From NCBI GenBank assembly GCA_002085445.1, contig NBMI01000009.1, positions 5,951 through 69,950 of the forward strand: a stretch of 64,000 bases of DNA. Direction: 5' to 3'. The position numbers were made by a program, and so were the translations under genes. The DNA is from Candidatus Parabeggiatoa sp. nov. 2 (lineage in GTDB: Bacteria > Pseudomonadota > Gammaproteobacteria > Beggiatoales > Beggiatoaceae). The notes beneath the pieces are model-generated. The model saw nothing but the letters and a program-made list of their open reading frames with translations, was not told the origin of the DNA and did no database searches. Each line of letters opens with the position of its first letter. Within the stretch, counting starts at the first letter, position 1. Of the stretch, positions 23,315 through 63,743 are shown piece by piece.

Positions 23315-23321
23315 AAAAAAA

Positions 23322-25426: not shown

Positions 25427-25639
25427 AATTAATATCCAAAGGGCGCATTTCTATTTTCCCGCTTTACCCCGAAGGGTGTGAATAGCAGTAAAACAACTTG
25501 GGGTAAAAGGGCTTACCACCTATCAGTTTATCAAAAAGGACTTTTTGACAAACAAAAATCCAGGGGCGTTGCCCCTGGCTTTAATAATACTTACCGAAGG
25601 GGCTAATAGAGGTTAACAGGAAGTTTTTTTTCAATCCAC
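25427..25639. repeat. gap within the GTPase cassette containing a GC-rich hairpin repeat
   Basis: A CCAGGGGCgttGCCCCTGG hairpin followed by CTTTAATAATAC (about 25,560-25,620) matches the blocks at 6,846 and 50,133. It separates the small 2-TM gene from the GTPase gene and might attenuate or terminate transcription. Otherwise nothing was seen. Confidence 0.55.
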
Positions 25640-25810: not shown

Positions 25811-25822
25811 TATTGAACCTCA

Positions 25823-28432: not shown

Positions 28433-28435
28433 AAG

Positions 28436-28799
28436 CTTTGGTAATGGGTAATAAGGGGCAAGGGGCAAGGGGCAATGGGAATAAGGCCAAGGAATAGGGG
28501 CAAGGGGCTAGGATTGAAGGCAATGCCGTTAAATATACTTAGCACGGGAATAATTTTCGAGGCAAAAGTTTTGCTTTGAAAAACTTTTGCTGAGAAAGGA
28601 CTTTTTGCACACCGCGTAGCGATTGGGTGTGTTTTTTAAAAGTGATCGACAGTTTTTCAGAGAAATAATTTAAAAACAGCCAACTGAAAGCTCAAGTCCC
28701 CTAAAGGGGACTAAATAATTATCTGAATATCTATAGCACAGCTTCGAGCCGAAGTTTCAACAGATCTCGCTTCGCTTGAGACGAAATTTGTGACCATCT
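28436..28799. other. upstream region of the GAP1-like gene: GGGGCAA repeats and a hairpin
   Basis: AAGGGGC/GGGGCAA heptamer-like repeats lie at about 28,455-28,510. A strong hairpin, GCAAAAGTTTT-gctttg-AAAAACTTTTGC, lies at about 28,561-28,592. It shares its stem sequence with the hairpins of the element that begins at 28,800. No gene was seen. Confidence 0.55.
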
Positions 28800-29173
28800 A
28801 CAGTTCGCATTATACACCAAAACCACAAAATGAAAAAAAAATCAAGTTCACGCAAAAGTTTTGGAAAAACACTTTTGCGTGAAATATTGACAGACAATAA
28901 TTATTTGTAATAGAATGCACGTCGGAACTTAGGGAAGTTCAAGAAGGCAGGTATTAGCGGTTCAGTTTATACGGGTTTTACCTAGACTTATAATTAAGAT
29001 AAGATTAGCTTCAAAATCAATACTTGGCAAAAGTTTCTCCGAAACTTTTGCCGACGTAAGTGTATATTATACATAGAGTCACAGATAATTATCTGTAACG
29101 TGGGGAGCTTACCCCTATTTCACATAAATAATTCGACTATTTTTGGGTAGTTTTGGCGTTTTTTAAGTAAGAG
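28800..29173 (+). repeat. long inverted repeat, copy 1 (about 370 bp, structured, with promoter)
   Basis: This segment is the reverse complement, with scattered differences, of 37,051-37,397. Shared landmarks are ACAGTTCGCATTATACAC at one end, a hairpin with stem ACGCAAAAGT, a TTGACA promoter box, GGAACTTAGGGAAGTTCAAG, the hairpin GGCAAAAGTTTC-tcc-GAAACTTTTGCC (about 29,025-29,052), the palindrome CAGATAATTATCTG, GAGCTTACCCCTATTTCAC, and TTTTTAAGTAAGAG at the other end. The hairpin flanks differ between copies but still pair, which suggests a selected RNA or cruciform structure. Each copy lies upstream of a large gene in the same relative orientation (GAP1-like here, RND transporter at 37.4 kb). 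Confidence 0.8.
28887..28916 (+). promoter_or_regulatory. sigma-70-type promoter in inverted repeat copy 1
   Basis: The -35 box TTGACA (28,887-28,892) and the -10-like TAGAAT (28,911-28,916) are 18 bp apart. The second copy has TTGACA and a perfect TATAAT at the same spacing. Transcription would run rightward through the hairpins of the element, antisense to the 3' side of the AAA gene. A short non-coding RNA is a plausible product. Confidence 0.5.
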
Positions 29174-29450
29174 TCTAAAATACCGGCTCGAAACATAAAA
29201 TTTGAGTATTTTAACAGATACTATAGTTTGTAAGAATAATATTTTGTTGCTAACAAACTGAAGATTCATGCCATGAATCCTCAGTTTGTAGCCTGATTTT
29301 TCTGAAAAACTATATCCCTTTTTGGGATAGTATCTGTTGCCGCTTTGTGGGCATATCATTTTCACGCTTAGCCCTTACCTTTCTCATTCCCCATTTCTCA
29401 TTTACCTGCCCCCTGACCTTTTTACCTTATCCCTTATCCCTTTTCCTTAC
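29174..29450. other. intergenic, AT-rich
   Basis: A GAGGATTCATGGCATGAATCT-like inverted repeat (ATGAATC/GATTCAT, about 29,262-29,283) lies beside CAAACTGA...CAGTTTGT. It could form a hairpin downstream of the inverted-repeat element. Nothing coding was seen. Confidence 0.4.
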
Positions 29451-31235
29451 TTAGGCTTGTATCACATCCCGCCCGTCTTTCAAAGCCTCTGTCCAAGAAT
29501 TGATGAGGCTCGCACATTTGCGTAGATATTTAGCATAGTTCTCGCTCCATTCCTCTAAGCCTTGCATGAGACTATCATTGGCGGGATCGCCTACCATCAA
29601 TCTGACCTTTGTTAGCACTTGTTGTAACAGAACAATATCTAGGGCATCCCAAGCGCTATTCATGTCCAGCAGTTGTAAATGAGCCAAGCAACGTTTTAAG
29701 GAGTCAGCGGCGCGTAAGGAAAACATAGCGTTTTTATACTTGAGCAACGCATCAAGTTCTTCTATAGACATGATTTGTTTTTCATCCAATTCAAGTTTAA
29801 CACGATCTAATGTAGCTCTCGGTTCTAAAGTCAATTCGATGATGGAAGCGCGATCTAAAACACGCGGCGACAACGATAAAGTTGTATGGTCATTATTGAT
29901 AGTGGCGACAAAACGGATGGCTGGGGAAACGAAGACTTTGCTGCCCGTCGCTGTCACGCCACGGATACTTTTACCACCGAGTTCAATCATACGCAGTTTG
30001 TCTTGATCATCTGGATATTGTGAGCGCACTAAAATATCGGCAAACCAATATTCGGGTTGACTGAGGTTAAATTCTTCAAAAATAACCATAAAGGTGCGTT
30101 TGTCATTCTTTCGCCAAGCCGTCTCGGCCTTGCATAAAAACTTCGTAAAATCAGTAGGTTCAAACTCATTGCTGATAGGATTGACATACCCTAATAAATC
30201 TTCACGACCACGCCAAGTAGAACCCACCGGCACAATCAGTTTGCGATCCTGATCGTCAATCAACTCAGTCGCTAAAGTGCTTTTACCAACCCCCGGATGG
30301 CCGGTGAGGATGAGAATATTTTTAGTCAGCGAGACGACCATCACAGCATCTAAAATTTCCTTGCTATAAGCGGTTTTTATTTTTTCTTTGGCACTGTCTT
30401 TTTCTATCAGTGGGCAAGTCGCTGTTCCATTTTTAGCAGCCGGTTTCGTGGGGGTTGTTACCACACTGGGAGAAGTTTTTTTAATGTCTAAGTTTTTTAG
30501 ACTATCAACAAAAGGGCTTCTCGTTAAAACCGACGGTGTACTTCGACTGGTATAGGTACGCACCATATTTTGCTGTATCCGCAGCGCATCTTCCCGGGCC
30601 ATTTCAAACCATTCATGCAAATGGGCATGAAAATTTTCAAACCGCTCGGCATCTTTAGCGTTATGCCAATTGGGGTGAGGACTACGGGCTTGCTCGGCCG
30701 CTTTTTCAAACATATTTTCCACTGCCACGCGGTTGACTTCTTTGAGATAAACCCCACCAATAATGCTCTTGTAGTACACGGTTAAGATATAGGGTTGCTG
30801 AAAGCGCGTCCAACCGTCGGGATAGGGTTCTATTCGCCACAAGGTCTTAAATTCATTGATTTTTTGTGGAGAAACACTACGCACACGATAGGCCCCGAAA
30901 ACGTAGTCTTTGGGTCTGGTATTAATATCACTAATCCCACGGGGTTCTTGAAAACGTTTACCCCAAAACAGTAAAATTTGATTATTCAATGCTTCTGGGT
31001 ACGGTTCAAGCAACCACCCTATGCCCAAATCATCGATCAGGCAATAGGGATTGGCTTGTTCAAAAATGTGGATGTGATAACAACGCGGATCGCCTTGTTG
31101 ACAATAGTCAGTACGAAATTGTTGTTTTGCAGAACAATTCCAAGTTTCGGCATTTTTACAAATGCTCCCATCCCACCCTCGACGGTGAGAGTTAATCGTA
31201 CAACCTAAAGCGTTACCAATGGTAATAAAACTCAT
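29451..31235 (-). CDS. MoxR/McrB-like AAA ATPase with a novel N-terminal domain
   Basis: This 594-residue protein has a C-terminal AAA+ module: Walker A LTGHPGVGKST (about residues 305-316), Walker B-like FMVIFEEFNLSQPEYWF (about 382-398), and a sensor region FVATINNDHTTLSLSPRVLDR (about 446). The helical lid follows to residue 560. Glu-Glu in the Walker B segment and the pre-sensor N fit the MoxR/McrB branch. The N-terminal 190 residues carry six or more Cys (for example the stretch CKNAETWNC, and CQQGDPRCYHIHIF) and resemble nothing I know. A low-complexity Ser/Thr/Pro linker joins the two parts. MoxR-type ATPases act as remodelling factors and occur in conflict systems with GTPases. This one lies upstream of the GAP1-like gene on the same strand, but 1 kb of repeat-containing sequence separates them. 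Confidence 0.78.
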   Translation of the reverse strand: MSFITIGNALGCTINSHRRGWDGSICKNAETWNCSAKQQFRTDYCQQGDPRCYHIHIFEQANPYCLIDDLGIGWLLEPYPEALNNQILLFWGKRFQEPRGISDINTRPKDYVFGAYRVRSVSPQKINEFKTLWRIEPYPDGWTRFQQPYILTVYYKSIIGGVYLKEVNRVAVENMFEKAAEQARSPHPNWHNAKDAERFENFHAHLHEWFEMAREDALRIQQNMVRTYTSRSTPSVLTRSPFVDSLKNLDIKKTSPSVVTTPTKPAAKNGTATCPLIEKDSAKEKIKTAYSKEILDAVMVVSLTKNILILTGHPGVGKSTLATELIDDQDRKLIVPVGSTWRGREDLLGYVNPISNEFEPTDFTKFLCKAETAWRKNDKRTFMVIFEEFNLSQPEYWFADILVRSQYPDDQDKLRMIELGGKSIRGVTATGSKVFVSPAIRFVATINNDHTTLSLSPRVLDRASIIELTLEPRATLDRVKLELDEKQIMSIEELDALLKYKNAMFSLRAADSLKRCLAHLQLLDMNSAWDALDIVLLQQVLTKVRLMVGDPANDSLMQGLEEWSENYAKYLRKCASLINSWTEALKDGRDVIQA

Positions 31236-45421: not shown

Positions 45422-45970
45422 ATGCACATCTCGGCCCTAAAAAAATTATTTAATTCGACGATTATTTTATTCCTCACCGGAATACTCCTAACGTATTCGA
45501 CGACTGTTCGCTCGGCCTCGGCCGAGCAATTGGACACCACCGAACTCACTCACTTTATTGTCCTAATTCGGGACACTGGGATGATGAAGAAAAGATTTTA
45601 TCCGCAAAAGATGATTGTGGAGACGTTGCCCAAACTCCTGTTTGAAGGGGCGGCCGTGTTAAGGGACAAAAAACCTTTAAACCCGTCTTTACCTGTGTAT
45701 CATCCTGAGCGCGATCATCTCTCTGTAGTGTTTGTCGGCATACATCAAGATACTGAATCCCAAACTCAGTGCAAAAACGCGCCGGCCCTTTCGGCGTTGC
45801 CCAAACATCTTTTTCAGTGGCAACTGGTTGAGCAAGGACAAAATCAAGCCGCTTTCAAAAACTCTTTACGCCAGTGGATTAATAAAAGTTGTCGCGCCCA
45901 AGGCATTGTTTCTTCGAGTGTTTTAGCGGAAACGATGATTTTACTGCCGAAGAAGATTATGGTACCTTAA
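45422..45970 (+). pseudogene. N-terminal fragment of the transmembrane Hsp70-type protein (second copy)
   Basis: These 182 codons are closely related to the first 175 residues of the protein at 50,858. Shared segments include MHIS.LK at the start, TIILFLTGILLTYST (signal sequence), HFIVLIRDTGMMKK.FYP and LPKLLFEGAAVL, and LSALPKHLFQWQ. Similarity stops at VLAETM, and the frame closes 11 codons later. In another frame the stretch from about 45,925 to 46,045 still reads as coherent protein (SGNDDFTAEEDYGTLKCEWP), so the break is a mosaic of small rearrangements. Both the TM and the ATPase domain are lost. Confidence 0.78.
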
Positions 45971-45973
45971 AAT

Positions 45974-46273
45974 GTGAATGGCCTATTATGGCCGGCGTTT
46001 GTAGAGATGGGGATAACCATTATGAAGCCAGAAATACTTAAGGAAGTGCCAAGCTATGTTCCACAAAATCGTGGCAAAAATTATGTGTACCAAACACCTG
46101 ATATTTTAAAAACGCTTGTGAAACCACAGGTTCAAAAAATGCTGAGGGAAGGAAAGTCCAACTTCGTGGTGGATATAGAAAGGTATGGGTTCGTCACGAA
46201 AAACCATCCAGAATCCAAAGCAAAAGCCGATGTCCGAGTGTTTGTCTGTAGTCCGGCGGAGTGGGAGAAATGA
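45974..46273 (+). pseudogene. C-terminal fragment of a coiled-coil FAKV-family protein
   Basis: From about 46,000 the frame matches the last 80 residues of the protein ending at 63,743: EMGITIMKPEILKEVP against EMDVQLIKPQLLEKVP, then LKTLVKPQVQKM, FVVDIERYGFVT and DVRVFVCSPAEWEK. Everything before it (signal, periplasmic module, TM and coiled coil) is missing. Directly upstream is the head of an Hsp70-type gene, so one deletion plus later frameshifts appears to have joined the front of one gene to the back of the other. Confidence 0.75.
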
Positions 46274-46744
46274 ATGACTTTGACAGATACTATCTAAAGT
46301 AGGGATAGTATCCTTTTCATCATCCCGTCCGAAAGGTTGTTTATCCGTGTAATTCGTTGTTGTAATTCGTTGTACTGGCCCACATGAAGTACAGCGAAAC
46401 GCAGTGGCGGAACGCCTATGACGGGGATAACCTAATTAGACAAGAGGTGTATTAAGTACAACGACACAAGCGCGGATAAACCAATTACTCTAGTACAACG
46501 AATTACGCGGATAAACCAATTGGATAATCGAATTAGACAATTCGTTCCTTATTCGCTTATCCGCGCTTGTGTCGTTGTACTCGGCCCAACCAATGAGATG
46601 TACTCAGCCCAACAATTCGTTTATCCGCGTAATTCGTTGTACTCAGCCCAATTCGTTGTACTCAGCATAATTCGTTGTACTCAGCGTAATTCTGCCCAAC
46701 CAATGAAATATACTCGGCCCAACAGACAAACAAGGAAAACAACT
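46274..46744. repeat. ACGAATTACGCGG array, forward then inverted
   Basis: Forward units at about 46,395-46,520 and inverted units at about 46,540-46,720 flank a centre reading AATTGGATAATCGAATTAGA, which also occurs near 44,050. The whole block is therefore a large imperfect palindrome. The open frame of the following gene extends back through it, but those codons (for example MDNRIRQFVPYSL) are repeat-derived. Confidence 0.8.
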
Positions 46745-49700
46745 ATGACTCAATACACCTCCAATTGTTTTGACTGTCTTTCTAAGATAGTGCAACTGTT
46801 CTTGTGTTTTGTGGTGTCGTCGTCACTCAATGTGGCTTATGCTGCAGTCACCCAACTCTCTGAAAACGACATTGGTTTCGCCAAAGTGTCGGGGAAAGTT
46901 GGGGTGGTTGAAAAAACGGCCGGTTGCTTGATTGTTTTTTCTCCACAACACAAGAAGTCCGTCAAGGATGTGTTTTGTCGATATGAACTGGGTAAACCAC
47001 GTCAATTTTATGTGGATGATGACAAAGGCCGAATAACAGTCATAGGAAAAAATACGGCAAACATTAGTGATGCAGTGCTACCAAAAGCGAAGAATCAGAA
47101 TGACTTTGTGAAGGCCATAACGGATTTTTTTAAAAGCAAAACGGGATACCAATTACCGGTCGATATGAATGCCATAGCGACATTCATGTCAAACCGTCAA
47201 TTTCCTAACGGGAATTTGGCGAATAAAAAACCAGCTAAGATTTATATCTTAGAGCAGGATTATTTGGCCGAAAACACGGATGACAAAACCTTTGCTTTCT
47301 TGGTGCATAATTTAATACAGCGTCGTGGAACGCTAGAGCGCACTGAAACAGAGATAGAAGCGCTTAAAAATAACCACGAAGCTTTCAAAGCGTTAACTAA
47401 CCTTGAGGTTAGAAAACTTCTCACACTGGAACTTGATAGCATTGTCAGTAAGGATGATCGCCTAAATATTCTCAAGAATGAGGATGTTAAAGCGATTTTA
47501 TTGGATAAAAAAGTTCAAGAATTGCTCAAAAACGATAACGTTATAAACGTATTGGGCAATAAGTCTGTTCCAACAGTCCTTGCCAATCCGGCCGTTCAAC
47601 GTATTTTGAGCAACGAAGACGCTATAGCTAAGTTATCTGACAAGAATACCGTCGCGTTTTTAAATCAAGAAGGGGTTCCAGAACTACTTAATAGTTCTAC
47701 TTTTCAAACATTTTTACAACAAAACCAAAGTGACTTGGAAGACAATCTGTTGTTGTTGATACTCAAATTTTCCATTTTTGTTGGTAGTCAATTAGAAGTC
47801 GTAGCTATTTTAATAGCCGCTTTGGTGATACTGTTTTTTCAGTGGCGGTTATCTAGGAAAACACGTCAATCCCTTTCCAATCTGGAAAAGGGTGAGCATG
47901 GCAATCAGAAAATTATCCAAAGCCTTTCCACGGTAGAAAACCAGATAAATGCTCATTCTGAAATGAGGCAGGCTCTTGATCGTATAGAAGACATGCTTGA
48001 GAAAAAATCCGGCATAAAGGCCGTTAAAGCGTTTATTCAAGTGCTATCACGTTGCGGCCTTCCCGATCTGAAAGACATTGAATTGACAAAATTGCCAGAA
48101 TGGGCAGAAACTCAGTTTGATAGCCAAACGTTGGTCGTGTTGCCACCCTCTAACTCTAGCTTGACGGTGACGGCTCTGCGTGACAAACAGGAAACGGTTG
48201 AGAATCTTCTTAAAGAACAACACTCGGCTGGTGAAAAGGCGGTGGTTGAGAAAACCATTGAAAAACACCCAGCCGGTGAAAAGAAACGGGGGCCGGTTGA
48301 GAAAACCATTGAAAAACACCCGGCTAGTGAAAAGAAACAGGGGCCTGTCGATAAAACCATTGAAATCCTAAATGAGTTGGATGTTCTTGTTCATAAAGAC
48401 TTCCAATCTGATGCTGAGATGTGGAAATATTTCCTTGAGACAGCCGCCGATAAAAAATGGCTAGATAATTTACTGGCTGCCTTACAACACGCTTTCTCCA
48501 TGAAAGAGGAATTAGAAAAAACCAAGCGCGAACGCGAACAATTGCAAACGGTACTTTCACAACGTTTTCATCTCACCCAACCTGAAGACAAGGCCTTTTC
48601 AGAATGGACAGAGGCACTTCTCAACCAACAAGGCACTTGGATTTGGTTGCAACCCAAGTCCATAGAAGGATTTTTTTCTAGCAGTGTTATCAGTCAGATT
48701 AAAGAAAATATTAGTCAGGTATGTGAAGACATGCAAAACATACCCGACGTTTCTGAACAACCATTATTACGCCTTGAAGAAGAAATCTCAAAGGATTGGA
48801 ATAATCTGCTCAACAACCCGTTCCAATCTCTTGACGACATGTCTAAGCAATTAGCGACATTGACTGATAAATGGCTAAACACCTTACTGATGTTTTTTAA
48901 ACACTATCTCTCGACGAAAGTCGAACGAGATAAATTGCAACAGCAGCTTTTAGAACGTTTTCTCCTCTCCAAGCCCCAAGATAAGAAAACTTCAATTTGG
49001 ATTGATGAACTCCTACAGCAACCGGGCAGATTGGTTTTATTACAACCTCATTTCATAAACGAACTGTTATCGTCTCAAAAAGACGCTATCCATCAAATGA
49101 GCAAACAGATGGCGAGAAGAAGTAAAGACGATCCGGTTTTACCACTGTTGCGCGTCAATGAAATCTCAATCGGTTGGAAGACATTTTTGGGAATGTCATT
49201 CCAGTCTAATGAGGAATTATGGGCGCATTTACATAAAGCCAGTGATGGCTGGCTAGGGACTTTACTTTCTGTTTTAGAACAGTATCATTTTCAGAAAGCA
49301 GAACAAAATCGCTTGCAAGCGGTTCTGTCAGAGCGATTTAGTCCTTCCCAAGAAGAACCCATTGACTTTTCGTTAGAAGGGTTTAGGACACAAAAAGGCA
49401 TTTGGCGTTGGTTGCAACTTTCCTTTATAGCGGAACTGCTGGCTTGTCAACACTGTGTCGCTCAATTGAAAATGGCAAAAGAAACCTTTCATGACCGTCA
49501 AAACCTCCTTAAAAACAACGTAGTCACTATCGAAGATATATTAGGGCTGTTGTACATGGATGAAGTGATGACCGGTTGTAAGGCTTTAGTCAGCAAACAA
49601 TTCCCATCCAATGACAAAATGCGGACTCAATTACTTGCTATGGGTAGCTGGATACATCGGTTACTTAGAGCCGATGATTTGTTGCAAGCCTACTTTGCCA

Positions 49701-50053
49701 AACAACCACAGTTTCGGCTTTTATCCCGTCATCTAGCGAATGCAGCGGGTGCATTGGAAGCCATGTTCATAGAAAGGGGTATAAAAGTATTAAAGCCGAC
49801 ATTACTTGAACCAATGCCAACAAAATACCAAATATTCGTGGTAGACTCTTCTCCTCCTACTGGCGCAAATCCAGTACTCAGAGCCTTAGACTTTGTTCAA
49901 CAACCGGTGAGCGAGAGACTCAATCCGAAGTCTCCTAACCATTGTTCTGAGTTTGTGGTGGATATACAAACCTACGGGTTTATTGACTCTAGCAATAAAA
50001 AACCGCTCTCAAAGATACAGGTAACTTTGACTAATCTCTCTGAGTGGAAATGA
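46745..50053 (+). CDS. bitopic FAKV-module protein with internally repeated cytoplasmic domain
   Basis: This 1,102-residue protein is unrecognised. It has a signal peptide (1-30, ending NVAYA). The FAKV module follows (about 38-150), beginning IGFAKVSGKVGVVEKTAGCL and containing FCRYELGK; its two Cys could form a periplasmic disulfide. A helical segment (about 195-340) is built of short repeats (EDVKAILLDKKVQELLKNDN), and a TM helix lies at about 345-368. In the cytoplasm a 17-residue repeat (VEKTIEKHPAGEKKRGP, about three copies) is followed by three diverged copies of a roughly 130-residue unit marked by LSQRFHLTQPEDKAFSEW, LLERFLLSKPQDKKTSIW and LSERFSPSQEE. A C-terminal domain (LLQAYF...SEFVVDIQTYGFI) is shared with 61,116-63,743. 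AAGGAAA supports the ATG at 46745. The Hsp70-type gene follows after 800 bp of repeats. Confidence 0.75.
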   Translation: MTQYTSNCFDCLSKIVQLFLCFVVSSSLNVAYAAVTQLSENDIGFAKVSGKVGVVEKTAGCLIVFSPQHKKSVKDVFCRYELGKPRQFYVDDDKGRITVIGKNTANISDAVLPKAKNQNDFVKAITDFFKSKTGYQLPVDMNAIATFMSNRQFPNGNLANKKPAKIYILEQDYLAENTDDKTFAFLVHNLIQRRGTLERTETEIEALKNNHEAFKALTNLEVRKLLTLELDSIVSKDDRLNILKNEDVKAILLDKKVQELLKNDNVINVLGNKSVPTVLANPAVQRILSNEDAIAKLSDKNTVAFLNQEGVPELLNSSTFQTFLQQNQSDLEDNLLLLILKFSIFVGSQLEVVAILIAALVILFFQWRLSRKTRQSLSNLEKGEHGNQKIIQSLSTVENQINAHSEMRQALDRIEDMLEKKSGIKAVKAFIQVLSRCGLPDLKDIELTKLPEWAETQFDSQTLVVLPPSNSSLTVTALRDKQETVENLLKEQHSAGEKAVVEKTIEKHPAGEKKRGPVEKTIEKHPASEKKQGPVDKTIEILNELDVLVHKDFQSDAEMWKYFLETAADKKWLDNLLAALQHAFSMKEELEKTKREREQLQTVLSQRFHLTQPEDKAFSEWTEALLNQQGTWIWLQPKSIEGFFSSSVISQIKENISQVCEDMQNIPDVSEQPLLRLEEEISKDWNNLLNNPFQSLDDMSKQLATLTDKWLNTLLMFFKHYLSTKVERDKLQQQLLERFLLSKPQDKKTSIWIDELLQQPGRLVLLQPHFINELLSSQKDAIHQMSKQMARRSKDDPVLPLLRVNEISIGWKTFLGMSFQSNEELWAHLHKASDGWLGTLLSVLEQYHFQKAEQNRLQAVLSERFSPSQEEPIDFSLEGFRTQKGIWRWLQLSFIAELLACQHCVAQLKMAKETFHDRQNLLKNNVVTIEDILGLLYMDEVMTGCKALVSKQFPSNDKMRTQLLAMGSWIHRLLRADDLLQAYFAKQPQFRLLSRHLANAAGALEAMFIERGIKVLKPTLLEPMPTKYQIFVVDSSPPTGANPVLRALDFVQQPVSERLNPKSPNHCSEFVVDIQTYGFIDSSNKKPLSKIQVTLTNLSEWK

Positions 50054-50857: not shown

Positions 50858-53800
50858 ATGCACATCTCGACCCTAAAAAACCGATTTAATTATACGATTA
50901 TTTTATTCCTCACCGGAATACTCCTAACGTATTCGACGAGTGTTCGCTCGGCCGAGGCCGATAAAAAATTGGACATCACCGAACGGACTCATTTTATTGT
51001 CCTAATTCGGGACACCGGGATGATGAAGAAAAAATTTTATCCGCTAAAGATGATTGTGGACACGTTGCCTAAACTGTTGTTTGAAGGGGCGGCCGTGTTA
51101 AAGGGCAATACACCCTTAAAGCCGACTTTACCGGTATATCATCCTGAGCACGATCATCTCTCCGTCGTGTTTGTTGCCATACATAAAGATGTGCGTTCAA
51201 CGGCCTGTAAAAACGATCCGGCCCTTTCGGCGTTGCCCAAACATCTTTTTCAGTGGCAACCGGTTAAGCAAGGACAAAATCAAGCCGCCTTCACGCGCTC
51301 TTTGCGCCAATGGATTAAGAAAAGTTGTCGCGCCCAAGGTTATGTCTCGTCCAACGTGTTGGCGGAAATGATGAGTTTGTCTTACGTTGAAAAGAAAATG
51401 GCTAACGAGAATTCTGGTAAGTTATTTTCCAAAACCATTCTCATTTTTCTGGGTAATGATGCCTATTATGGCGGCGCCAACCCAAGTAGAGAACTTGGTT
51501 CGTTAAAACAAATTCAGAAGGTTAGAGATATAAAAGAGGCCGCTCAGAAAATTGATGATCTCAATAAGGCCTTTCATATCGTCACGCCCCCCGATTGGGT
51601 ATTTACAATCCATCCCAAAACCCGTCAATTCCAGCGCGGCAATATTGATCACGGTAATACCTTAAGATATAGAGTCGCTGAAATCCAAACACTAGATAAC
51701 CAGAATAAATTCCTTGACTACCATCAAACCATCAAATTAGATCGAGTCGCGATGTCCAATGACAAGCTCAAATTGGTGCAACCGGGTGGCGCAGAGATTA
51801 TATTAGGCATTCGGCACTCAAAGCGATTGCAGCCGGACAAACTTGAGTTAGCTTTTGCCGATAAAAACGGCAATGATTGGCAAATCGGTCAACACGCGTT
51901 GCCGCGTTCAACCGTTATTGATATTCGCGCATGCAAAAAATCTAAAAAATGTCAAGTACAAAATGATGGCACGCTTCATGTTCCCCTGCTCGGTGTTGTA
52001 ATGAATGATCCTCACCTTCGGGCCGATGATCCGGCCCTTACGCCCGGGCAAATCCGTTTTAAAATCAGATTTCGTTATAACGCCGAAGGTGTCTATACGC
52101 ATCACTACGTCGATACAAAGTTAAAAACGATTGATATTCAACCGGTTAAACCGTTAGTCATTTCAGAAAGCCTTTTTAGTGCTCGGATTTTTCCGCAAGT
52201 CGTCTTGGATAATAAAACCCTTGCTGCCCAATACGATCCCTCTAAAGATTCACCACAAGGGTTAACACAAGATGTCGCACGCGCTCGCCTTGAGGCCGAG
52301 AAAACGGCCAATGAGAATAAAGCCATTATCGGTGTTATTGTTTCAGTACTGATACTGTTGATCATTGCTTGGCTACTGCTTTATAAATTCAAATACCACC
52401 GTCGCTTCAAACCGAAATTGGAGTGGGAACCGGCAAAAAAAATTGATATTAATTTTAATCAACAGCCGGGCGCGATTATTAAAGTAGGTGTATTGACTGT
52501 CAGAAACGAAGGAGAGGTTCCGTGGTTTGGTAAATTGTTTGGGAATAAGGACTATCCTGACTATAAGGTCGAATTTTTCTTAAATTACAGTAACGATCAG
52601 TTGAGAAAGTGCGGAGTCATACTGTCTGAAAAGAAAGCAGCACCCTTTTATTTCACGGAAAAGAAAACAGATACGGCCTCCCATTCTTCAGAAGACAAGA
52701 AGATATCCGAAAAAGCCTTCTACGGTGCCTTGAAACAAGTTCAACAAATCGATCCCAAAAGTTTATTTGGTTCTTCACGGGAACGCAATACAGAGACTAC
52801 TCCGCTTGTGCCTCAGATTGAACATCGGGTAAGTCACGAGACACCTATTTATGTCTTTTTTGCCACCGATGTCATTGAAGATTTCAAGCATTCTGAGCAA
52901 AAAATCGTAGAAGGGCAGATTACCGTGACTTTTGGGGGAAAAGGCAAAAATGTTCAGATAGCCGTGGAAATGTTGCATGACAATAAACCGGTTGCACGTA
53001 AAGAGATTGAGTTCAATCTCGAAGTGATGCCAGAGCAACCCAAGCCACCACGAGTCACTTACCAACCCAATGCCGAAAAGCTTTACTTTCAGAAAGACAA
53101 ATCTATCCGCATTGGCACACTCCGTTTTGAAAGCCAAGCGGAACACTATTTTGCTAAGCCCTTTAAGGGCCGTTTCAACATACAAAGTTATAAGAATAAT
53201 CTGTCTTTAGAAAACAACCCTGTGGCGCTTCTTCCCAAAGGCGAAGAAGTTGAGGTGCGGCCCCGTCAAACCTCAGAAGTCGATGTGGTTGTCTTCTGTG
53301 ATGGTGAGAGCATATTGAATCCAGAGCCGCGCCAAGACTACACCTTTAACTTGACGGGTCAGTTTGCCCATGGTTCAGAGCAGGTGCCTCATACATTTAC
53401 CCTGCTCCGCGATCCCACTCGGGCCGACATCGCGTTGGAGATTGTCCAATTTAAGAACACCTATAGTCTCTATTGGCAACAAAAGGATGGAGAACAAAAG
53501 GATGGAGAACAGAGAGCGTTTGAAAAATATCCGAGTTTTCGATTGAGAGTCGAGGGGAGAGAAGAAGCCGAAGGCCATTCGCTTGACAACGGCATCTTAA
53601 ACTTGGCGCCTAATCTCGTTAAATTTGATAAAGGTACCCCGGCCGTCACGATTTTTGAAATACATCTGGGCAACACCGGCAAATCGGGACAAGGTTGGGT
53701 CAAACTCCATCTGACGATGGAACTGAAATTTCAACCCCAGGTACGGATGGCCATAAAACTTCACCAAGGGTACCAGATTGAAAATTCACTCCATCTCATC

Positions 53801-56077
53801 ACGAGCGATCACCAAGGAGAATTTAACGGCGATGAAATGATTACCGTCAAAGAAGGCGAACCGGACGAAAAACTCGTGGTTCAAATCAATGCTGGGCAAA
53901 CCATTCAAGATATTGTCGGTGGGCGAATTGACACTGACTCTGGTAGCATTAACGCTTTTCTTGATATAGAAATTCAGGATGACGACGGACAAAAACGTTC
54001 ACACGAACTCACCATTGTCGCGCCAATTGGAGTCGAAAAACTCCCCCATCCCAATTGGCTCTGTATTGACTTTGGCACCTCCGCCATTGTCGCGGCGGTT
54101 GGCACCCAAGATAAGCCCTACTTTTTACCGCTTCAGAAATTAGTCAAAGAACATGATCCGGCCCTCAACCTTGAGGACTATGATCCAAACAACACCGAAC
54201 GGGGCACCGATTTTCTGCCCAGTCAAATCGTTTGCGATGCCGATTTACGCCAAAGTGAAACCCAAGACGACAAGATAAGAAAAGGTTATCCAAGATACCA
54301 ACCGGCTTCCTTGAAACCGGGCGATCCCGATTTTATCGGCTTACCCGCCACAACGCCGCGACTCCGCGAATATCCGGGGCGCGTGATTTTTTCACTCAAA
54401 AGCTGGCTGGCGCAACCGTCAGAAACTATCTCATTGCCGGAAAGGGTTAAATTTTACCAATTGGATAACCTAGGCAATATCGTGACGGAAAAAGATGAAG
54501 AAGATAATCACAAACCGGTAGAGATTGAGCGGCCTCAGTTGCCATTGAAAGACTTAGTGGAATCTGGGTTTGCGGCCTTAGCCGAAGGCTATATCATCGC
54601 CCTTGATGTGTTTGAAAAAGGCGGGCAACTCATCTTGTCTCACCCAAACACGTTTACCGCCTTTCACAAGAAAAAATTACACGACATTGCTTGGAAAGCA
54701 CTCAATCAACGTTTAGGCATTGCCTTACCGGAGCGCCTTCAACTCATTAGCGAATCGGATGCTGTCGCTTATCACTATTGTCGGCAACGGATGTTAGAGG
54801 CGCGGCATTGTAGTAGTGATAAGGAACTGCAACGCATTTTGGAGAAACTGCGTAACAATAACGGGTGGGAATGCCTATTAGTCTACGATTTTGGGGCCGG
54901 CACACTGGATTTATCTTTAGTACATATCCGTTGGAATCAAGAAGGTACCTATCCCGAACAGTGGCAAGTCGAAAATCGCTTAGGCGTGCCGATTGCCGGC
55001 AATCATCTTGACAGTTTACTGGCGCGACTGATAGATGGCTTGCTCAGAGACGAATCCGTTCTGAACCCGGAAGTGTTTGAATATCAATATCCGGTTGTCG
55101 ATAAACAACTGAAAGGAGACAGTAATGAACAACTTGATCATCGCCAAGCCGTATACAAATTGTGGCAAAATATCCGCGAAGTCAAACACAGTGCTGACTG
55201 GCAGGAAGGCAAGCCATTTCGCGTCCTAGTTGGAAGTAAAGGTGGTACGGAGGTTGTTAGATACAAAGAAAATGCGTTTCTCCCTAGCCCTGAAACCGCG
55301 CCAGAAGTCAGTTCGGAATCCCGTTCGGAATCACAAGAGCGTTCTGAGGTTGAAAAACCCGTCTTAGAAACGGATGGCGACCAAATCTACCTCAAGATTC
55401 CCGCGGTAACGGTACATAACTATCCACCGTTGCAAGCGTTTATTGAGTTCGTCGCAGATACCGTCGTCAATGAATTGTTAGGCAGTGCGGAAATAGCCGC
55501 GCAACAAGTCAATACCGTGGTGGTTTCCGGAAGAGGCGCACTTTGGCAAGGCTTACGTGAGCGCGTCTGGAACAAATTCCCGGAACGCTGCGAAAAGCCT
55601 AAGTTGGACAAAGAACAAGTCAAAAATGCCGTTGTCAGTGGCGCGATTGCTTGGCAAGAATTAAGCGAAATTAACGCGATTGAGCCAAAGATAAAACCAC
55701 GCTTAGCCATTTTGCGTGAACAAGATAATTTCTTAACACCGGAAGAAGACTGGGAAAAAGAGCCTATTGACTTGCGAGCCACTAGCACTTTCCGTCTGGT
55801 TCAGATTTCTCACCAGAATCCTGATCCAAAAAAAGACTTCAACTCGTTGCACCGTCATTTTTACATTTTATTGGATCAGATACGTCGTGAGACGATGTGG
55901 AAAGCTGATCCTTGGTTATTTGTCAGCAAACAAGAACAACAGGGGCAAACCGTTATCAAACTGCAAAATAAACAAGGGCAAGGTTTTGACTTTGCCACAG
56001 TTGGCTCAGTCGGCACGGTTTCATCCACGCCACCGTGGCCGATTGGTAATATTTTATTGGAACCCGATAATCAGTGA
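50858..56077 (+). CDS. transmembrane protein with vWA-like periplasmic region and C-terminal Hsp70-type ATPase
   Basis: This 1,739-residue protein has a signal sequence (TIILFLTGILLTYSTSV, about 13-30). A periplasmic region (about 40-480) starts THFIVLIRDTGMMKKKFYPL and later has TILIFLGNDAYYGG, a strand/loop pattern like a vWA domain but without the full DxSxS metal site. One TM helix lies at about 488-508 (AIIGVIVSVLILLIIAWLLL). A roughly 550-residue beta-rich region follows. The Hsp70/actin-type ATPase is marked by WLCIDFGTSAIVAAVGTQ (about 1,066, phosphate 1), LLVYDFGAGTLDLSLVHI (about 1,341, phosphate 2) and VVVSGRGALWQGLRERVW (about 1,554, adenosine). The substrate-binding half is absent. 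It could couple a periplasmic signal to an ATP-driven cytoplasmic switch. No ribosome site is evident; TAACTGA repeats abut the start, and another TAACTGA array supplies the stop. Confidence 0.82.
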   Translation: MHISTLKNRFNYTIILFLTGILLTYSTSVRSAEADKKLDITERTHFIVLIRDTGMMKKKFYPLKMIVDTLPKLLFEGAAVLKGNTPLKPTLPVYHPEHDHLSVVFVAIHKDVRSTACKNDPALSALPKHLFQWQPVKQGQNQAAFTRSLRQWIKKSCRAQGYVSSNVLAEMMSLSYVEKKMANENSGKLFSKTILIFLGNDAYYGGANPSRELGSLKQIQKVRDIKEAAQKIDDLNKAFHIVTPPDWVFTIHPKTRQFQRGNIDHGNTLRYRVAEIQTLDNQNKFLDYHQTIKLDRVAMSNDKLKLVQPGGAEIILGIRHSKRLQPDKLELAFADKNGNDWQIGQHALPRSTVIDIRACKKSKKCQVQNDGTLHVPLLGVVMNDPHLRADDPALTPGQIRFKIRFRYNAEGVYTHHYVDTKLKTIDIQPVKPLVISESLFSARIFPQVVLDNKTLAAQYDPSKDSPQGLTQDVARARLEAEKTANENKAIIGVIVSVLILLIIAWLLLYKFKYHRRFKPKLEWEPAKKIDINFNQQPGAIIKVGVLTVRNEGEVPWFGKLFGNKDYPDYKVEFFLNYSNDQLRKCGVILSEKKAAPFYFTEKKTDTASHSSEDKKISEKAFYGALKQVQQIDPKSLFGSSRERNTETTPLVPQIEHRVSHETPIYVFFATDVIEDFKHSEQKIVEGQITVTFGGKGKNVQIAVEMLHDNKPVARKEIEFNLEVMPEQPKPPRVTYQPNAEKLYFQKDKSIRIGTLRFESQAEHYFAKPFKGRFNIQSYKNNLSLENNPVALLPKGEEVEVRPRQTSEVDVVVFCDGESILNPEPRQDYTFNLTGQFAHGSEQVPHTFTLLRDPTRADIALEIVQFKNTYSLYWQQKDGEQKDGEQRAFEKYPSFRLRVEGREEAEGHSLDNGILNLAPNLVKFDKGTPAVTIFEIHLGNTGKSGQGWVKLHLTMELKFQPQVRMAIKLHQGYQIENSLHLITSDHQGEFNGDEMITVKEGEPDEKLVVQINAGQTIQDIVGGRIDTDSGSINAFLDIEIQDDDGQKRSHELTIVAPIGVEKLPHPNWLCIDFGTSAIVAAVGTQDKPYFLPLQKLVKEHDPALNLEDYDPNNTERGTDFLPSQIVCDADLRQSETQDDKIRKGYPRYQPASLKPGDPDFIGLPATTPRLREYPGRVIFSLKSWLAQPSETISLPERVKFYQLDNLGNIVTEKDEEDNHKPVEIERPQLPLKDLVESGFAALAEGYIIALDVFEKGGQLILSHPNTFTAFHKKKLHDIAWKALNQRLGIALPERLQLISESDAVAYHYCRQRMLEARHCSSDKELQRILEKLRNNNGWECLLVYDFGAGTLDLSLVHIRWNQEGTYPEQWQVENRLGVPIAGNHLDSLLARLIDGLLRDESVLNPEVFEYQYPVVDKQLKGDSNEQLDHRQAVYKLWQNIREVKHSADWQEGKPFRVLVGSKGGTEVVRYKENAFLPSPETAPEVSSESRSESQERSEVEKPVLETDGDQIYLKIPAVTVHNYPPLQAFIEFVADTVVNELLGSAEIAAQQVNTVVVSGRGALWQGLRERVWNKFPERCEKPKLDKEQVKNAVVSGAIAWQELSEINAIEPKIKPRLAILREQDNFLTPEEDWEKEPIDLRATSTFRLVQISHQNPDPKKDFNSLHRHFYILLDQIRRETMWKADPWLFVSKQEQQGQTVIKLQNKQGQGFDFATVGSVGTVSSTPPWPIGNILLEPDNQ

Positions 56078-58794: not shown

Positions 58795-60834
58795 ATGATG
58801 ATTGCAAATACACAAGTTTTGCTCAACGGTTGGGTGAATGCTTTGTCTCTTGCCATAGCATTTTGCCTGTTGGTGGTTGGTGTTGCCTCTGCTCAGCAGA
58901 ACGGTGCTAATACTAATCCGGCGCCGGTGGAGAACACCCCAAGCCGCCATAAAATTGCCTTTGCCAAAATCACTGGCACGGTTGGTGAGTCTGAGAAAAC
59001 GGCCAGTTGCGTGATTGTTTGGTTAGCCAGCGAACCCAGCACTAAACCTATTTACTGTAGATATGAACTTGAGAAAAACGCAAAGTTTCTTCGAGATGAT
59101 GATAATGGTATTAATCCAGATAAAGTCGTCAATTTGTATTCTTCTCAGGATCAGAACGACTTTGAACAGAGAATCCAAGCTTGGTTTAAAAACAAACTCC
59201 AGTTGAACCTAGCTCAGAATGAGCTACAACTTATTGCTAAGTTGATGATGTCAAGCACTACGTTTTCTCCGAATAGCCTCTTTGCAATTCAACCGCCGGC
59301 ACGTTATGACGACTTCGTCTTACCTGACAGTTTACCTGCGAGTGATAAGACGAACGCTAAAGACAAGAAACTTGAAGAGTACAAAACATTTGCTGCCGAA
59401 GTACATCGTTTCATTCCAGAAAAGATGGCTGAGATAGCAGAAAATATACCAAATAATCCGGTGCCTACTACGGAGAGCACTCCAAACTTTCAAATTGCCT
59501 TTGCCAAAGTCTTAGACATGGTTGATAAGCCTGAGAAAACGGCCAGTTGCGTGATTGTTTTGTTAGCCAGCGAACCCAGCACTAAACCTATTTACTGTAG
59601 ATATGAACTTGAGAAAGACACAAACTTTCTTCGAGATGATGATAATGGTATTAATCCAGATAAAGTCGTCAATTTGTATTCTTCTCAGGATCAGAATGAC
59701 TTTGAACAGAGAATCCAAGCCTGGTTTAAAAACAAACTCCAGTTGAACTTAGCTCCTAATGAGCGACAACTTATTGCCAAGTTGATGTCAAGCAGTACGT
59801 TTTCTCCGAATAGCCTCTTTGTAATTCAACCGCCGGCACGTTATGAGTTCGTCTTACCTTACACTTTACCAGCGAGTGATAAGACGAACGCTAAAGAGAA
59901 GAGAGTTGAAGAGTACAAAACCTTTGTTGCCTCAGTACATGGTTTTATTCCGAAAAAGATGGCTGAGATAGCAGAAGATAATCCTAATCCAGCAATTACA
60001 AAGAACACCCTAAGCCTTAAAGTTGCCTTTGCCAAAGTCTTAGGCACGGTTCGTGAGTCTGGGGAAACCGCCAGTTGCGTTATTGTTTCGTCAACCGGCG
60101 CTCCTAGCGATAAAAATGTCTATTGTAGGTATAAATATCCGATAGAAGGCCTATTTTTTGATTCGGAAGACGGGCTAAATCTGTCGGTTGTCAAGTCGGA
60201 TTCGGTTCCTAATATCCAGAAACACTTCATTGATTGGTTTACAACCAAATATCCTCAGTATCATTACCTCATGATTAATGATGTGAACGAGATTTTGGCG
60301 TTTATGTCAAATGAGGCGCAAGAATTTCCTAAAGATAAAACGGTATTTGGTAAAAAGCCTGAAACGATCCTGTTGACAAAATTTGAGAGTTTAACTACGC
60401 CGCCTAGTCATCGGAATGACTTAAAAAATGCTCATCAAAACCAGTTTGCTTGGCTAGTACATCAAGCAATTGGAGGGATGATTGTTCCCAACTTGGATGA
60501 AACTCCGGCTAAAACGCCGCCGACTGATAACAAACTCGTAACATTAGAAAATGTCATTATTTGGTTAGGGCTTGGTATCGTTGTTATTGTCATATTGGCT
60601 CTATTATGGTTATTATTCTTCTTGGCTAAGAAAAATATCCATTTAGTGACTGAACTTTGCAATAATATTTTCTCGGCACCTGACAAGAAAAGTTCTCAAC
60701 GGCAAAAACAGGAAATCGACTCGGCGGCGTTGCGGCAAGATTTTGAGAAGCTCCGTGAAGAAGTGAAAAATGCGCGCTTAGAGCACAGAAAACTTGTTCA
60801 ACAAATCACGCACAAACCGGAGTCCAAACTTTAG
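58795..60834 (+). CDS. bitopic protein with three tandem FAKV modules, truncated C-terminus
   Basis: This 679-residue unrecognised protein has a signal sequence (about 1-35, AIAFCLLVVGVASAQQ). Three copies of the FAKV module follow (about 52-210, 232-390, 409-560). Each module opens (I/V)AFAK(I/V) and contains KTASCVIV, then YCRYE or YCRYKY, and a helical part (QRIQAWFKNKLQLNLA, ELQLIAKLM). Copies 1 and 2 are nearly identical in DNA, so that duplication is recent. A TM helix lies at about 586-612, followed by about 65 cytoplasmic residues. The frame stops at a CCAAACTTTAGTTTGG repeat that supplies ESKL and the TAG. The paralogue at 61,116 continues with a long coiled coil, so this copy is truncated. 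AAGGAAA supports the start. Confidence 0.78.
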   Translation: MMIANTQVLLNGWVNALSLAIAFCLLVVGVASAQQNGANTNPAPVENTPSRHKIAFAKITGTVGESEKTASCVIVWLASEPSTKPIYCRYELEKNAKFLRDDDNGINPDKVVNLYSSQDQNDFEQRIQAWFKNKLQLNLAQNELQLIAKLMMSSTTFSPNSLFAIQPPARYDDFVLPDSLPASDKTNAKDKKLEEYKTFAAEVHRFIPEKMAEIAENIPNNPVPTTESTPNFQIAFAKVLDMVDKPEKTASCVIVLLASEPSTKPIYCRYELEKDTNFLRDDDNGINPDKVVNLYSSQDQNDFEQRIQAWFKNKLQLNLAPNERQLIAKLMSSSTFSPNSLFVIQPPARYEFVLPYTLPASDKTNAKEKRVEEYKTFVASVHGFIPKKMAEIAEDNPNPAITKNTLSLKVAFAKVLGTVRESGETASCVIVSSTGAPSDKNVYCRYKYPIEGLFFDSEDGLNLSVVKSDSVPNIQKHFIDWFTTKYPQYHYLMINDVNEILAFMSNEAQEFPKDKTVFGKKPETILLTKFESLTTPPSHRNDLKNAHQNQFAWLVHQAIGGMIVPNLDETPAKTPPTDNKLVTLENVIIWLGLGIVVIVILALLWLLFFLAKKNIHLVTELCNNIFSAPDKKSSQRQKQEIDSAALRQDFEKLREEVKNARLEHRKLVQQITHKPESKL

Positions 60835-61115
60835 TTTGATCAAAGTAGTACAACGGATACAGTACAACGGATACTCGAAATAAACGGATAAAAAAACCTA
60901 AAAAAATTCCTAATTTTACAAAATTTATTAATTCCTAAAATCCGTTTATTTAGCTCCGCTGACCTACGGTTCGCGTATCCGTTGTACTTGGGCAGCTTAA
61001 CTTAATGGCATTGAGGCCAGCGTCCAAACTTGAAAAAATCAGTTTAGTCCAAAAATACGTACTTTCAGTACAATTTCAAAACAAATTTCTTCAACAAACC
61101 GTTAAGGAGAATACG
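60835..61115. repeat. repeat-containing gap between FAKV paralogues
   Basis: CGGATACAGTACAACGGATA / CTCGAAATAAACGGAT units (about 60,843-60,892), AATCCGTTTATTTAGCTCCG / TATCCGTTGTACT (about 60,938-60,990) and the CTTAACTTAATGGCATTGA element end (about 60,997-61,015) fill this gap. The open frame of the next gene begins inside that last repeat. Its first 37 codons are rejected in favour of the ATG at 61116. Confidence 0.7.
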
Positions 61116-63743
61116 ATGAAGACTGCAAATACACAAATTTTGCTCAAAGATTGGGTGAATGCTTTGTTCCAAGCAATCGCATTTTGCCTATTGTTATTGG
61201 GTTCTGTCGGGGTGGGTGTTGCCTATGCTCAGGAACAGGGACTAGCACAGAGTGCGGGAACGGGCACTCCAAGCCATGAAATTGCCTTTGCCAAAGTCTC
61301 AGACACGGTTGATAAGCCTGAGAAAACGGCCGGTTGCGTGATTGTTTGGTTAGCCAGCAAACCCGACACCAAACATATCTACTGTAGATATGAACTTGGG
61401 AAAAACGCAAAATTTCTTCGAGATAATGATATTGGCATCAATCTGTCTGATGTAAAGTTGTATCCTTCTCAGAATCAGACAAAATTTGAAGAGAAAATCC
61501 AAGCCTGGTTTAAAAAGAAACTCAAGTTGGAGAACCTGGCTCCGAATGAGCTACAACTTATTGCGGAGTTGATGTCAAGCACTGAGGAAACGTTTTCTCC
61601 GAATAGCCTATTTCCAATTCAACCGCCTACACGTTATGACTTCGTCTTACCTAACAGTTCACTTGCGAGTAATGAGAGGAAAGCTGGAGACAAGAAACTT
61701 GACTACAAAACCTTTGCAGCCGAAGTACATCGTTCTATTCCAAAAAAGATGGCTGAGATAGCTAACAAGGAAGCAAGTACTGCTAAACAGGTAGCTGCTA
61801 GTCAAGTCACGGCTGCTGATGATAAAACAGAAGCAGACAAAGTGGATAAGAAAGCGGCTGGCGAGGTTGATGAAGAAGCGGCTGATAATAAAGAGGCTAA
61901 GGAGACTGATGACAAAGCGAATGCTGACACCACACTGACTGACAACAAACTCAGCGAGCTTGAAGATACCATTGCTCAGTTATGGTTTGGCATTATTCTC
62001 GTTCCCGTTGTTATATTGGCTCTGTTAGGGTTTTTCTTGGCTAAGAAAAATACTCATTTAGTGACTGAACTTCGCAATGATATTTCCTCGGCACTTGACG
62101 AGAAAATTTATCAACTGCAAAAGCAACAGCAAATTGAGTATAAAACAACGTCACAGCAACATTTCGACAAGCTCCGTGACGAACTGAAAAATGTGCGCTT
62201 AGAGCCACTTGTTCAACAACTAACGCCGGAAAAACCGGAAGAACCGGCTATTTCCGCTCGCCCATCCAAACCAGAGTCAGAACCCACGCCGCCGCCAAGG
62301 CAATCAGAAGTCAAGGCGCAACTGGCGTCATCCAAACGAAATCAAGAACTAGAACAGGAGAAAAATCGACTAGAACACGACTTGAAGACTGCACAGAACC
62401 AACTGTCTTCAGAGCAAGAACAACGCGAACAGACCGATAAAACCCTAAAAGAAACCCTGGACAAACTGAATACGGCCACCAACAAACATCAACTAGCCCA
62501 CAATGCCTTAGAAGGCATAAGAACACAGCTTAACCAAGTCCTTGAAAACTCTCAACAAATGCCAGAATACGCTGAGGCAGAGAAAACATTGGACGGCCTG
62601 AAAACGGTCATCACACAATACACGGGCGAGAAGGATAAACGTGAAAAAGCCGACAAGGTATTAAAAGACATCCGCACTGAGCTAAACAAGGTTGTTAAAG
62701 CTAAATTAGCCGAAGACGAAGACGCTGAAAAAACCTTGGAATCCATCCAAACGGGTGTGAACACTGTCATTCGTACTTTGAGAACGAAAGACAAGGAACT
62801 GAAAACGCTCACTCAACATGAACAGGCCTTGCAGCAAGACGTTTTAACTGCTCTCATCCGTGAGCCGCTGGATGATTCAAAAGAATGGACCGAAAAACGA
62901 CTTGAAGAATTACGGACAGAAATCAATCAGTCCCTAGAAAAAACGAAGACAGAACGGGAGTCGCTCTCCCAACAATACGAAACAGAAAAGACGACACGTC
63001 AACTGCGAGATGTGGCCCTAGAAGAGGCCCAAACCGAACTGAAAACGCTCACTGAAAATCAACAAACATTGCAAAACGTGCTGCATGGCCGTTTTCGCCT
63101 CGTTAAACCAGAAAACATCGACTTCTCCCATTGGACAACGGCCCTAATAGAACAACAAGGAACTTGGCGTTGGGCACAACTGACACTGGTAGGAGAACTG
63201 TTGGCTTGCGAAACATCCGTCAAACAAATTAAAGAACAAGGCGACAAAAAAGCCCACGACATCCTAGCGACTTTAGAGCTAGACAAGCCTTTGGAACAGT
63301 GGAACACGTTAGTCGGCCACCTCTTTGAGTCCGATACGCAATTATGGAAAGCTTTACGGGATACAGATGGCGGCAAATGGCTCAACCGCTTATTGAGAGC
63401 CTCGGATTTGTTACAAGCCTACTTTAAACAGGAACAACAATTTGGTTTGTTATCTCAACACCTGTCCAATGTCTCTGGCATCTTACAGGCGGTGTGTGCC
63501 GAAATGGATGTACAATTGATAAAACCCCAATTGCTTGAAAAAGTCCCAGACGACATCCCAGAAAATAATTATCGCTACACCCCTTATAAGCTTTTCAAAA
63601 CGCTTGTGAAACCACAGGTACTAGAAAAACTCAAGACAGTGCCTAAGTTTGTAGTGGATATCGAAACTTATGGCTTTGTCACGGCTGATAACCCTAAACC
63701 CGATGTGCGAGTGTTTGTCAGCAGTCCTGCGGAATGGGAATGA
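61116..63743 (+). CDS. bitopic FAKV-module protein with long cytoplasmic coiled coil
   Basis: This 875-residue unrecognised protein has a signal sequence (about 15-42, AIAFCLLLLGSVGVGVAYAQ) and one FAKV module (about 54-210: IAFAKVSDTVDKPEKTAGCV, IYCRYELGKNAKFLRDND). A low-complexity Ala/Lys/Asp linker (about 220-280) leads to a TM helix (about 287-312). A cytoplasmic Pro-rich stretch (PSKPESEPTPPPRQSE) and a long heptad-rich coiled coil (about 400-655) follow. The conserved C-terminal domain (about 658-875: RFRLVKPENIDFSHWTTALI, QGTWRWAQLTLVGELLAC, FKTLVKPQVLEKL, FVVDIETYGFV) is shared with 46,745-50,053 and with the fragment at 46.0 kb. AAGGAG before the ATG at 61116 fixes the start. The architecture resembles a receptor: periplasmic sensing module, TM helix, signalling coil. 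Confidence 0.78.
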   Translation: MKTANTQILLKDWVNALFQAIAFCLLLLGSVGVGVAYAQEQGLAQSAGTGTPSHEIAFAKVSDTVDKPEKTAGCVIVWLASKPDTKHIYCRYELGKNAKFLRDNDIGINLSDVKLYPSQNQTKFEEKIQAWFKKKLKLENLAPNELQLIAELMSSTEETFSPNSLFPIQPPTRYDFVLPNSSLASNERKAGDKKLDYKTFAAEVHRSIPKKMAEIANKEASTAKQVAASQVTAADDKTEADKVDKKAAGEVDEEAADNKEAKETDDKANADTTLTDNKLSELEDTIAQLWFGIILVPVVILALLGFFLAKKNTHLVTELRNDISSALDEKIYQLQKQQQIEYKTTSQQHFDKLRDELKNVRLEPLVQQLTPEKPEEPAISARPSKPESEPTPPPRQSEVKAQLASSKRNQELEQEKNRLEHDLKTAQNQLSSEQEQREQTDKTLKETLDKLNTATNKHQLAHNALEGIRTQLNQVLENSQQMPEYAEAEKTLDGLKTVITQYTGEKDKREKADKVLKDIRTELNKVVKAKLAEDEDAEKTLESIQTGVNTVIRTLRTKDKELKTLTQHEQALQQDVLTALIREPLDDSKEWTEKRLEELRTEINQSLEKTKTERESLSQQYETEKTTRQLRDVALEEAQTELKTLTENQQTLQNVLHGRFRLVKPENIDFSHWTTALIEQQGTWRWAQLTLVGELLACETSVKQIKEQGDKKAHDILATLELDKPLEQWNTLVGHLFESDTQLWKALRDTDGGKWLNRLLRASDLLQAYFKQEQQFGLLSQHLSNVSGILQAVCAEMDVQLIKPQLLEKVPDDIPENNYRYTPYKLFKTLVKPQVLEKLKTVPKFVVDIETYGFVTADNPKPDVRVFVSSPAEWE

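Follow-up and report, generated by a model that had tools for sequence, protein, structure and literature searches.

What does an Hsp70 nucleotide-binding domain (NBD) do at the end of a protein that spans a membrane? This question is raised by a gene in a 64,000-nucleotide stretch of contig NBMI01000009.1 (the window) from Candidatus Parabeggiatoa sp. nov. 2, a filamentous sulfur bacterium of the Beggiatoaceae. The gene encodes a protein, here called TM-Hsp70, in which a signal peptide, a vWA-like periplasmic domain, a single transmembrane (TM) helix and a chain of beta-sandwiches precede the NBD. Our comparisons indicate that TM-Hsp70 is a predicted ATPase heading a four-gene membrane operon that recurs outside the family, and suggest that it may be the core of an envelope-spanning signalling complex. 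Its parts are as follows.

50858-56077, + strand: intact TM-Hsp70 gene, 1,739 amino acids; parts in identical order in ten other genomes
50858-50959, + strand: signal peptide region, residues 1-34; hydropathy peak at 14-32, similar in homologs; model helix at 4-24
50984-51592, + strand: degenerate vWA-like periplasmic domain, residues 43-245; element order in the AlphaFold2 (AF2) model, hhalign, DxSxS in locus L189
51599-52147, + strand: periplasmic beta-sandwich domain, residues 248-430; AF2 model, predicted local distance difference test (pLDDT) mostly about 77-88
52325-52381, + strand: single TM helix, residues 490-508; hydropathy 3.27, kept in 7 of 7 members
52406-54031, + strand: cytosolic beta-sandwich chain (Ig/pilin/cadherin-like), residues 517-1058; AF2 and Foldseek
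54053-55672, + strand: Hsp70-type NBD, residues 1066-1605; hhalign, decoys, invariant residues
55673-56074, + strand: conserved C-terminal tail, residues 1606-1739; not an Hsp70 substrate-binding domain (SBD)

TM-Hsp70 ends in a whole Hsp70 nucleotide-binding domain

On recheck, the coordinates and length given by a first-pass annotation of the window were exact. That annotation had also considered a frameshift or misassembly near the TM segment, which would join unrelated genes. One chimeric remnant does occur in the window (45422-46273, described below), but the TM-Hsp70 gene is a single open frame without stops and its junctions are identical in ten other genomes, which leaves an artefact of this kind with a negligible chance. 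Because these genomes encode the parts in the same order, we conclude that the TM-Hsp70 system is a real machine or switch, not a sequencing accident.

The three nucleotide signatures reported at the C-terminus are real: phosphate-1 is WLCIDFGTSA (residues 1067-1076), phosphate-2 is VYDFGAGTLDLS (residues 1342-1353) and the adenosine signature is VVVSGRGALW (residues 1554-1563), with connect-1 (LISESDAVAYH) and connect-2 (AVVSGAIAWQ) also present. Comparison of profiles with hhalign confirmed an Hsp70 NBD, the C-terminal domain matching DnaK/HscA with E-values of 7.1e-11 (8 sequences) and 1.8e-13 (10 sequences) and a score of 112-118, whereas none of 30 decoys made from reversed and shuffled alignments scored above 23. 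The alignment covers DnaK residues 8-356 only, that is, the NBD. When the profile was compared with solved structures (PDB), all 30 sequences returned were Hsp70s; among other actin-fold families there was one weak match, to an actin-like protein (BeeR). The assignment of the ATPase domain is thus one of profiles, the AF2 models covering residues 1-1059 and the partner protein.

Single-family models were less sensitive. The window protein matched no Pfam family, and among seven homologs NCBIfam HscA matched six and Pfam HSP70 three, weakly. A PADLOC candidate model, PDC-M61B, matched residues 1338-1392 (3.5e-8); since this is the phosphate-2 region of Hsp70, the match carries little information beyond Hsp70 itself. 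An identity with SrfB was considered and rejected, there being no Pfam match.

In the register given by hhalign, the equivalents of DnaK D8, T11, K70, E171, D194, T199 and D201 are identical in 10 of 10 sequences, and the invariant residues of TM-Hsp70 are D1071, T1074, K1181, E1299, D1344, T1349, D1351, G1558 and G1560. As the catalytic residues are all invariant, TM-Hsp70 is likely, as judged from its sequence, to be an active ATPase. It shares with DnaK and HscA the whole NBD, with all signatures and catalytic residues, but this domain is larger (about 540 residues versus 380), sits behind a signal peptide, a TM helix and a beta-sandwich chain, and is followed by neither SBD nor lid. The first-pass annotation had reported the absence of a substrate-binding half, and we agree: the tail past the NBD did not match the SBD profile of DnaK (E 0.07-0.48).

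The N-terminal half combines a degenerate vWA-like domain with a beta-sandwich chain

The proposed signal sequence and single TM helix were borne out by hydropathy, which in 7 of 7 family members examined gave a segment like a signal peptide and a single strong TM segment, at matching positions. Directly after the TM helix stands KFKYHRRFKPK; by the positive-inside rule these basic residues place the C-terminal ATPase in the cytosol. An AF2 model of residues 1-1059, built from an alignment of 11 sequences (mean pLDDT 74), contains the large beta-rich region described inside the membrane, with pLDDT mostly 80-94 over residues 730-1058. Foldseek matched this model to multi-domain Ig-, cadherin-, integrin- and pilin-like chains. 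Because the search was dominated by the Ig-like chain, it supports the beta chain and is no test of the vWA part.

For the periplasmic domain, the earlier description as a degenerate vWA-like segment held for the order of strands and helices and for the lost metal site, while profile similarity to vWA was weak. In the AF2 model the elements are b44-51, a62-80, b100-106, b131-134, a142-153, a166-183, b192-199, a209-238 and b239-242, an order that agrees with vWA up to the fifth strand, and HFIVLIRDTGMM, DHLSVVF and SKTILIFLGND fall on three vWA strands. Comparison with a vWA profile by hhalign gave P values of 0.0078 and 0.07, depending on direction, and 0 and 1 of 120 decoys, respectively, reached the score; Pfam VWA did not match the region. 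The metal ion-dependent adhesion site (MIDAS, DxSxS) reads DTGMM in the window protein and is kept, as DDSES, only in the acidobacterial ortholog L189. C117 and C157 are invariant and possibly form a disulfide. Descent of the periplasmic domain from vWA is supported, not proven.

TM-Hsp70 leads a four-gene operon in distant bacteria

A profile search for the same architecture, as the first-pass annotation had suggested, found it in 8 of 43 Beggiatoaceae genomes, among them G001 (Candidatus Parabeggiatoa), G010, G015, G025, G028, G033 and G061; the gene is cut by a contig end in G015 and split over two contigs in G061. A genome scan with the single protein gave no match, and a profile scan of 84,980 genomes succeeded, adding L185 and L189 from the Acidobacteria and L186 from the Alphaproteobacteria. 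Their proteins also carry the signal peptide, vWA-like part, TM helix and beta chain, and are about 36-42% identical to TM-Hsp70 in the ATPase segment. TM-Hsp70 was present in 1 of 396 sampled genomes of the phylum of L185 and in 1 of 385 of the class of L186, each being the genome already known, and a class sample outside the Beggiatoaceae yielded short generic Hsp70-like matches only, without the TM-Hsp70 layout. Its occurrence is rare and patchy.

Where the surroundings are preserved, TM-Hsp70 is followed by a TM coiled-coil partner, a membrane-anchored CAP-domain protein and a cytosolic helical protein of about 1,100 amino acids.

L185, genes 1-4: 4899-9956, 9931-12873, 12901-13818, 13828-17154
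L189, genes 1-4: 4506-9395, 9367-11970, 11931-12884, 12934-16551
L186, genes 1-4: 5010-9986, 9941-12928, 12919-13809, 13851-17123
G028 (= L028), genes 1-4: 4579-9414, 9418-12510, 13261-14229, 14513-17950

Overlapping genes and the same four-gene order are thus found in both Acidobacteria and Alphaproteobacteria. The partner lies immediately downstream of TM-Hsp70 in G001, G028, G033, G061, L185, L186 and L189, and the last three genes stand on a separate contig in G025 and G010. The C-terminal module of the partner occurs in 6 of the 8 genomes with TM-Hsp70 versus 0 of the 35 other family genomes. Pfam CAP matched the third protein at 4e-17 to 2e-15 and was undetected in L186. On this gene order, TM-Hsp70 is the lead gene of a rare membrane system of four genes, apparently without a name so far, which also exists outside the Beggiatoaceae.

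This order is disturbed in the window, where TM-Hsp70 has partners on both sides and two AAA ATPase genes stand between.

45422-46273, + strand: remnant interrupted by a stop; joins residues 1-179 of a second TM-Hsp70 to the C-terminus of a partner
46520-50053, + strand: second partner gene; repeated coiled-coil modules, weak STI1/UBQLN-like repeats; start codon uncertain
58795-60834, + strand: partner-type gene with FAKV domains and TM helix; no match to the C-terminal module
61005-63743, + strand: partner gene; signal peptide, FAKV domain (TAGC...YCRYEL), TM helix, coiled coil, C-terminal helical/beta module

The remnant is 79% identical to residues 1-179 of TM-Hsp70, and its match to the partner module contains one TAA; it is a deletion remnant of a tandem copy. 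A fusion in L021 (766-3228; G033:C155), in which the periplasmic domain and TM helix of a partner are joined to a degenerate half of an Hsp70-like ATPase, likewise looks like a deletion between adjoining genes. A Rosetta-stone argument from this fusion was dropped because phosphate-1 and half of the ATPase are absent. Elsewhere in the window, 10262-16941 holds a tandem of three related TPR proteins.

We also considered a GrpE-like partner, as suggested by a helical bundle followed by C-terminal V..DIE.YGF..V.V, and rejected it when the controls failed. The hhalign comparison with GrpE was colinear (P 0.026-0.14), but the reversed alignment scored as high and shuffles reached the score; the AF2 model of the partner had no GrpE fold match. 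Membrane anchors combined with a C-terminal GrpE domain (PF01025) do occur, in proteins at L172 4338-5474 (5.2e-8, above the cut-off) and L171 7919-10147 (1.4e-4, below it), and no Hsp70 gene was noticed adjoining them. Weak STI1/UBQLN-like repeats stand ahead of the TM helix in the partners at window 46520-50053 and L168 3793-6756.

Inputs and neighbours point to signalling

The genome of the window also encodes a paralog (L022:4744-10371) that retains the beta chain and NBD (79% identity over residues 646-1735) and carries, in place of the periplasmic part and TM helix, a coiled coil with a Ser/Thr kinase (Pfam 2.5e-28). In G061 the start of TM-Hsp70 shares eight bases with a kinase-like gene. 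We infer that the beta chain and NBD form a constant module with exchangeable inputs.

Genes of other effector types lie close by. The fourth gene of L189 starts with DUF4062 (12934-13539; Pfam 1.1e-5, PADLOC candidate PDC-S60 6.7e-35), and divergent from this operon is a gene with FGE, TIR and calcineurin-like parts (1352-4306). A CHAT gene stands upstream of the operon in L185, and CHAT genes overlap sensor-only homologs of TM-Hsp70 in G006 and G030. Such homologs, with the periplasmic part, TM helix and first beta domain and no ATPase, are encoded at L030 8430-12426 and L032 7895-11774, where they overlap a TPR-CHAT gene and adjoin the ATP synthase operon.

TM-Hsp70 as a candidate signalling switch

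The first-pass annotation had proposed a transmembrane switch that reads a periplasmic or envelope signal. The anatomy stood, with signal peptide, vWA-like part, TM helix, beta region and SBD-less NBD, and the ATPase is likely; that an envelope signal is read we can only infer. The switch is strengthened by the kinase that replaces the sensor in the paralog and by the kinase gene overlapping TM-Hsp70 in G061, and the kinase, DUF4062, TIR and CHAT associations together make a signalling switch the best reading. We give a probability of about one half to a reading in which TM-Hsp70 supplies the ATPase at the core of a signalling complex spanning the envelope, perhaps of a conflict or cell-death kind. 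In such a complex, the vWA and beta-sandwich domains, with the CAP and FAKV domains, would bind an envelope or foreign ligand, and binding would be relayed through the TM helix and beta chain to the NBD. The ATP and ADP states of the NBD, with no peptide to grip, might then alter the assembly of the coiled-coil partner and helical scaffold, which could recruit or release an output of kinase, DUF4062 or CHAT type. More specifically, and tentatively, the system may be an immunity or cell-death switch, in which an SBD-free Hsp70, linked across the membrane with a vWA sensor, controls outputs of the TIR, kinase or CHAT type. Several observations weigh against signalling: each effector-type neighbour occurs in one or two lineages, not all; the two sensor-only CHAT cases are not independent, since both come from one genus; the metal site of the window protein is degenerate; and the CAP and helical genes were not seen in the window, where the contig ends about 160 bases beyond.

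PilM, through the single-pass coiled-coil partner PilN, and FtsA are actin-fold ATPases coupled to the inner membrane. TM-Hsp70 resembles them in this placement and differs in being itself transmembrane and in matching Hsp70s by profile. Like PilM, which plays this role for PilN in type IV pili, it could be the assembly platform of a constitutive machine that builds or moves an envelope structure together with the coiled-coil and CAP proteins. Such a machine would suit an operon that encodes two TM proteins, long coiled coils, a CAP domain in the periplasm and a large helical protein in the cytosol, and would also suit the pilin and cadherin chains matched by Foldseek; but its very rare, patchy occurrence, the recurring kinase, CHAT and TIR-type neighbours, and the lack of any secretin, pilin or outer-membrane gene noticed adjoining make us rather doubt it. 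A chaperone tethered to the membrane, where it would pull or fold proteins during translocation, is improbable. The NBD is a true Hsp70 domain, two partners carry the weak STI1/UBQLN-like repeats, and Hspa13/STCH, an Hsp70 of the eukaryotic endoplasmic reticulum whose NBD is 39% identical to BiP, lacks an SBD and acts on translocation (PMC9691929). Unlike TM-Hsp70, Hspa13 has no vWA, beta chain or operon partners; TM-Hsp70 has no SBD, its partner is not demonstrably GrpE-like, no nucleotide exchange factor is supported in the operon, and no J-protein gene was noticed adjoining.

The closest published idea lies in the GAP1-N2 conflict systems of Kaur et al. 2020 (PMC7159879), which include HSP70, GrpE, HSP70 without the peptide-binding domain, and separate membrane-bound vWA and beta-rich proteins. 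The likeness extends to the kinase theme and, in related systems of that paper, to TIR, calcineurin and FGE-type effectors. Those components are separate proteins around a DO-GTPase/GAP1 core, whereas TM-Hsp70 is a single chain, has a constant four-gene operon of its own and lacks a constant DO-GTPase/GAP1. The window itself contains genes for Hsp90-like, GrpE, Hsp70, DO-GTPase2, GAP1-N2 and AAA proteins (17403-31235), with the GAP1-N2/DO-GTPase2/GrpE/Hsp70 cluster at 20-31 kb; here a gammaproteobacterium carries a GAP1-N2 conflict system with the HSP70/GrpE theme. TM-Hsp70 might be a component of this system 22 kb upstream, and DO-GTPase2 also adjoins the partner in G010. GAP1-N2 is enriched in genomes with TM-Hsp70 (3 of 8 versus 2 of 35, P 0.037), but was not found in the other five, several of them incomplete, and none was noticed near the operon in the locus DNA of L185, L186 or L189. 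With GAP1-N2 in only 3 of 8, we do not count TM-Hsp70 as a member of these systems, and such membership has a low probability. A literature search, made largely without subscription journals, found no paper on a transmembrane Hsp70 of this architecture and gave nothing useful on a YegD/YegI/YegL precedent.

Taken together, these results describe an Hsp70 ATPase domain that is used on a membrane receptor-like protein, not a chaperone, within a compact operon that distant bacteria have retained. Should TM-Hsp70 indeed be a signalling switch, it would make the control of an Hsp70 ATPase across a membrane tractable to study, and would exemplify how filamentous and other bacteria have recruited chaperone parts to signalling or immunity.
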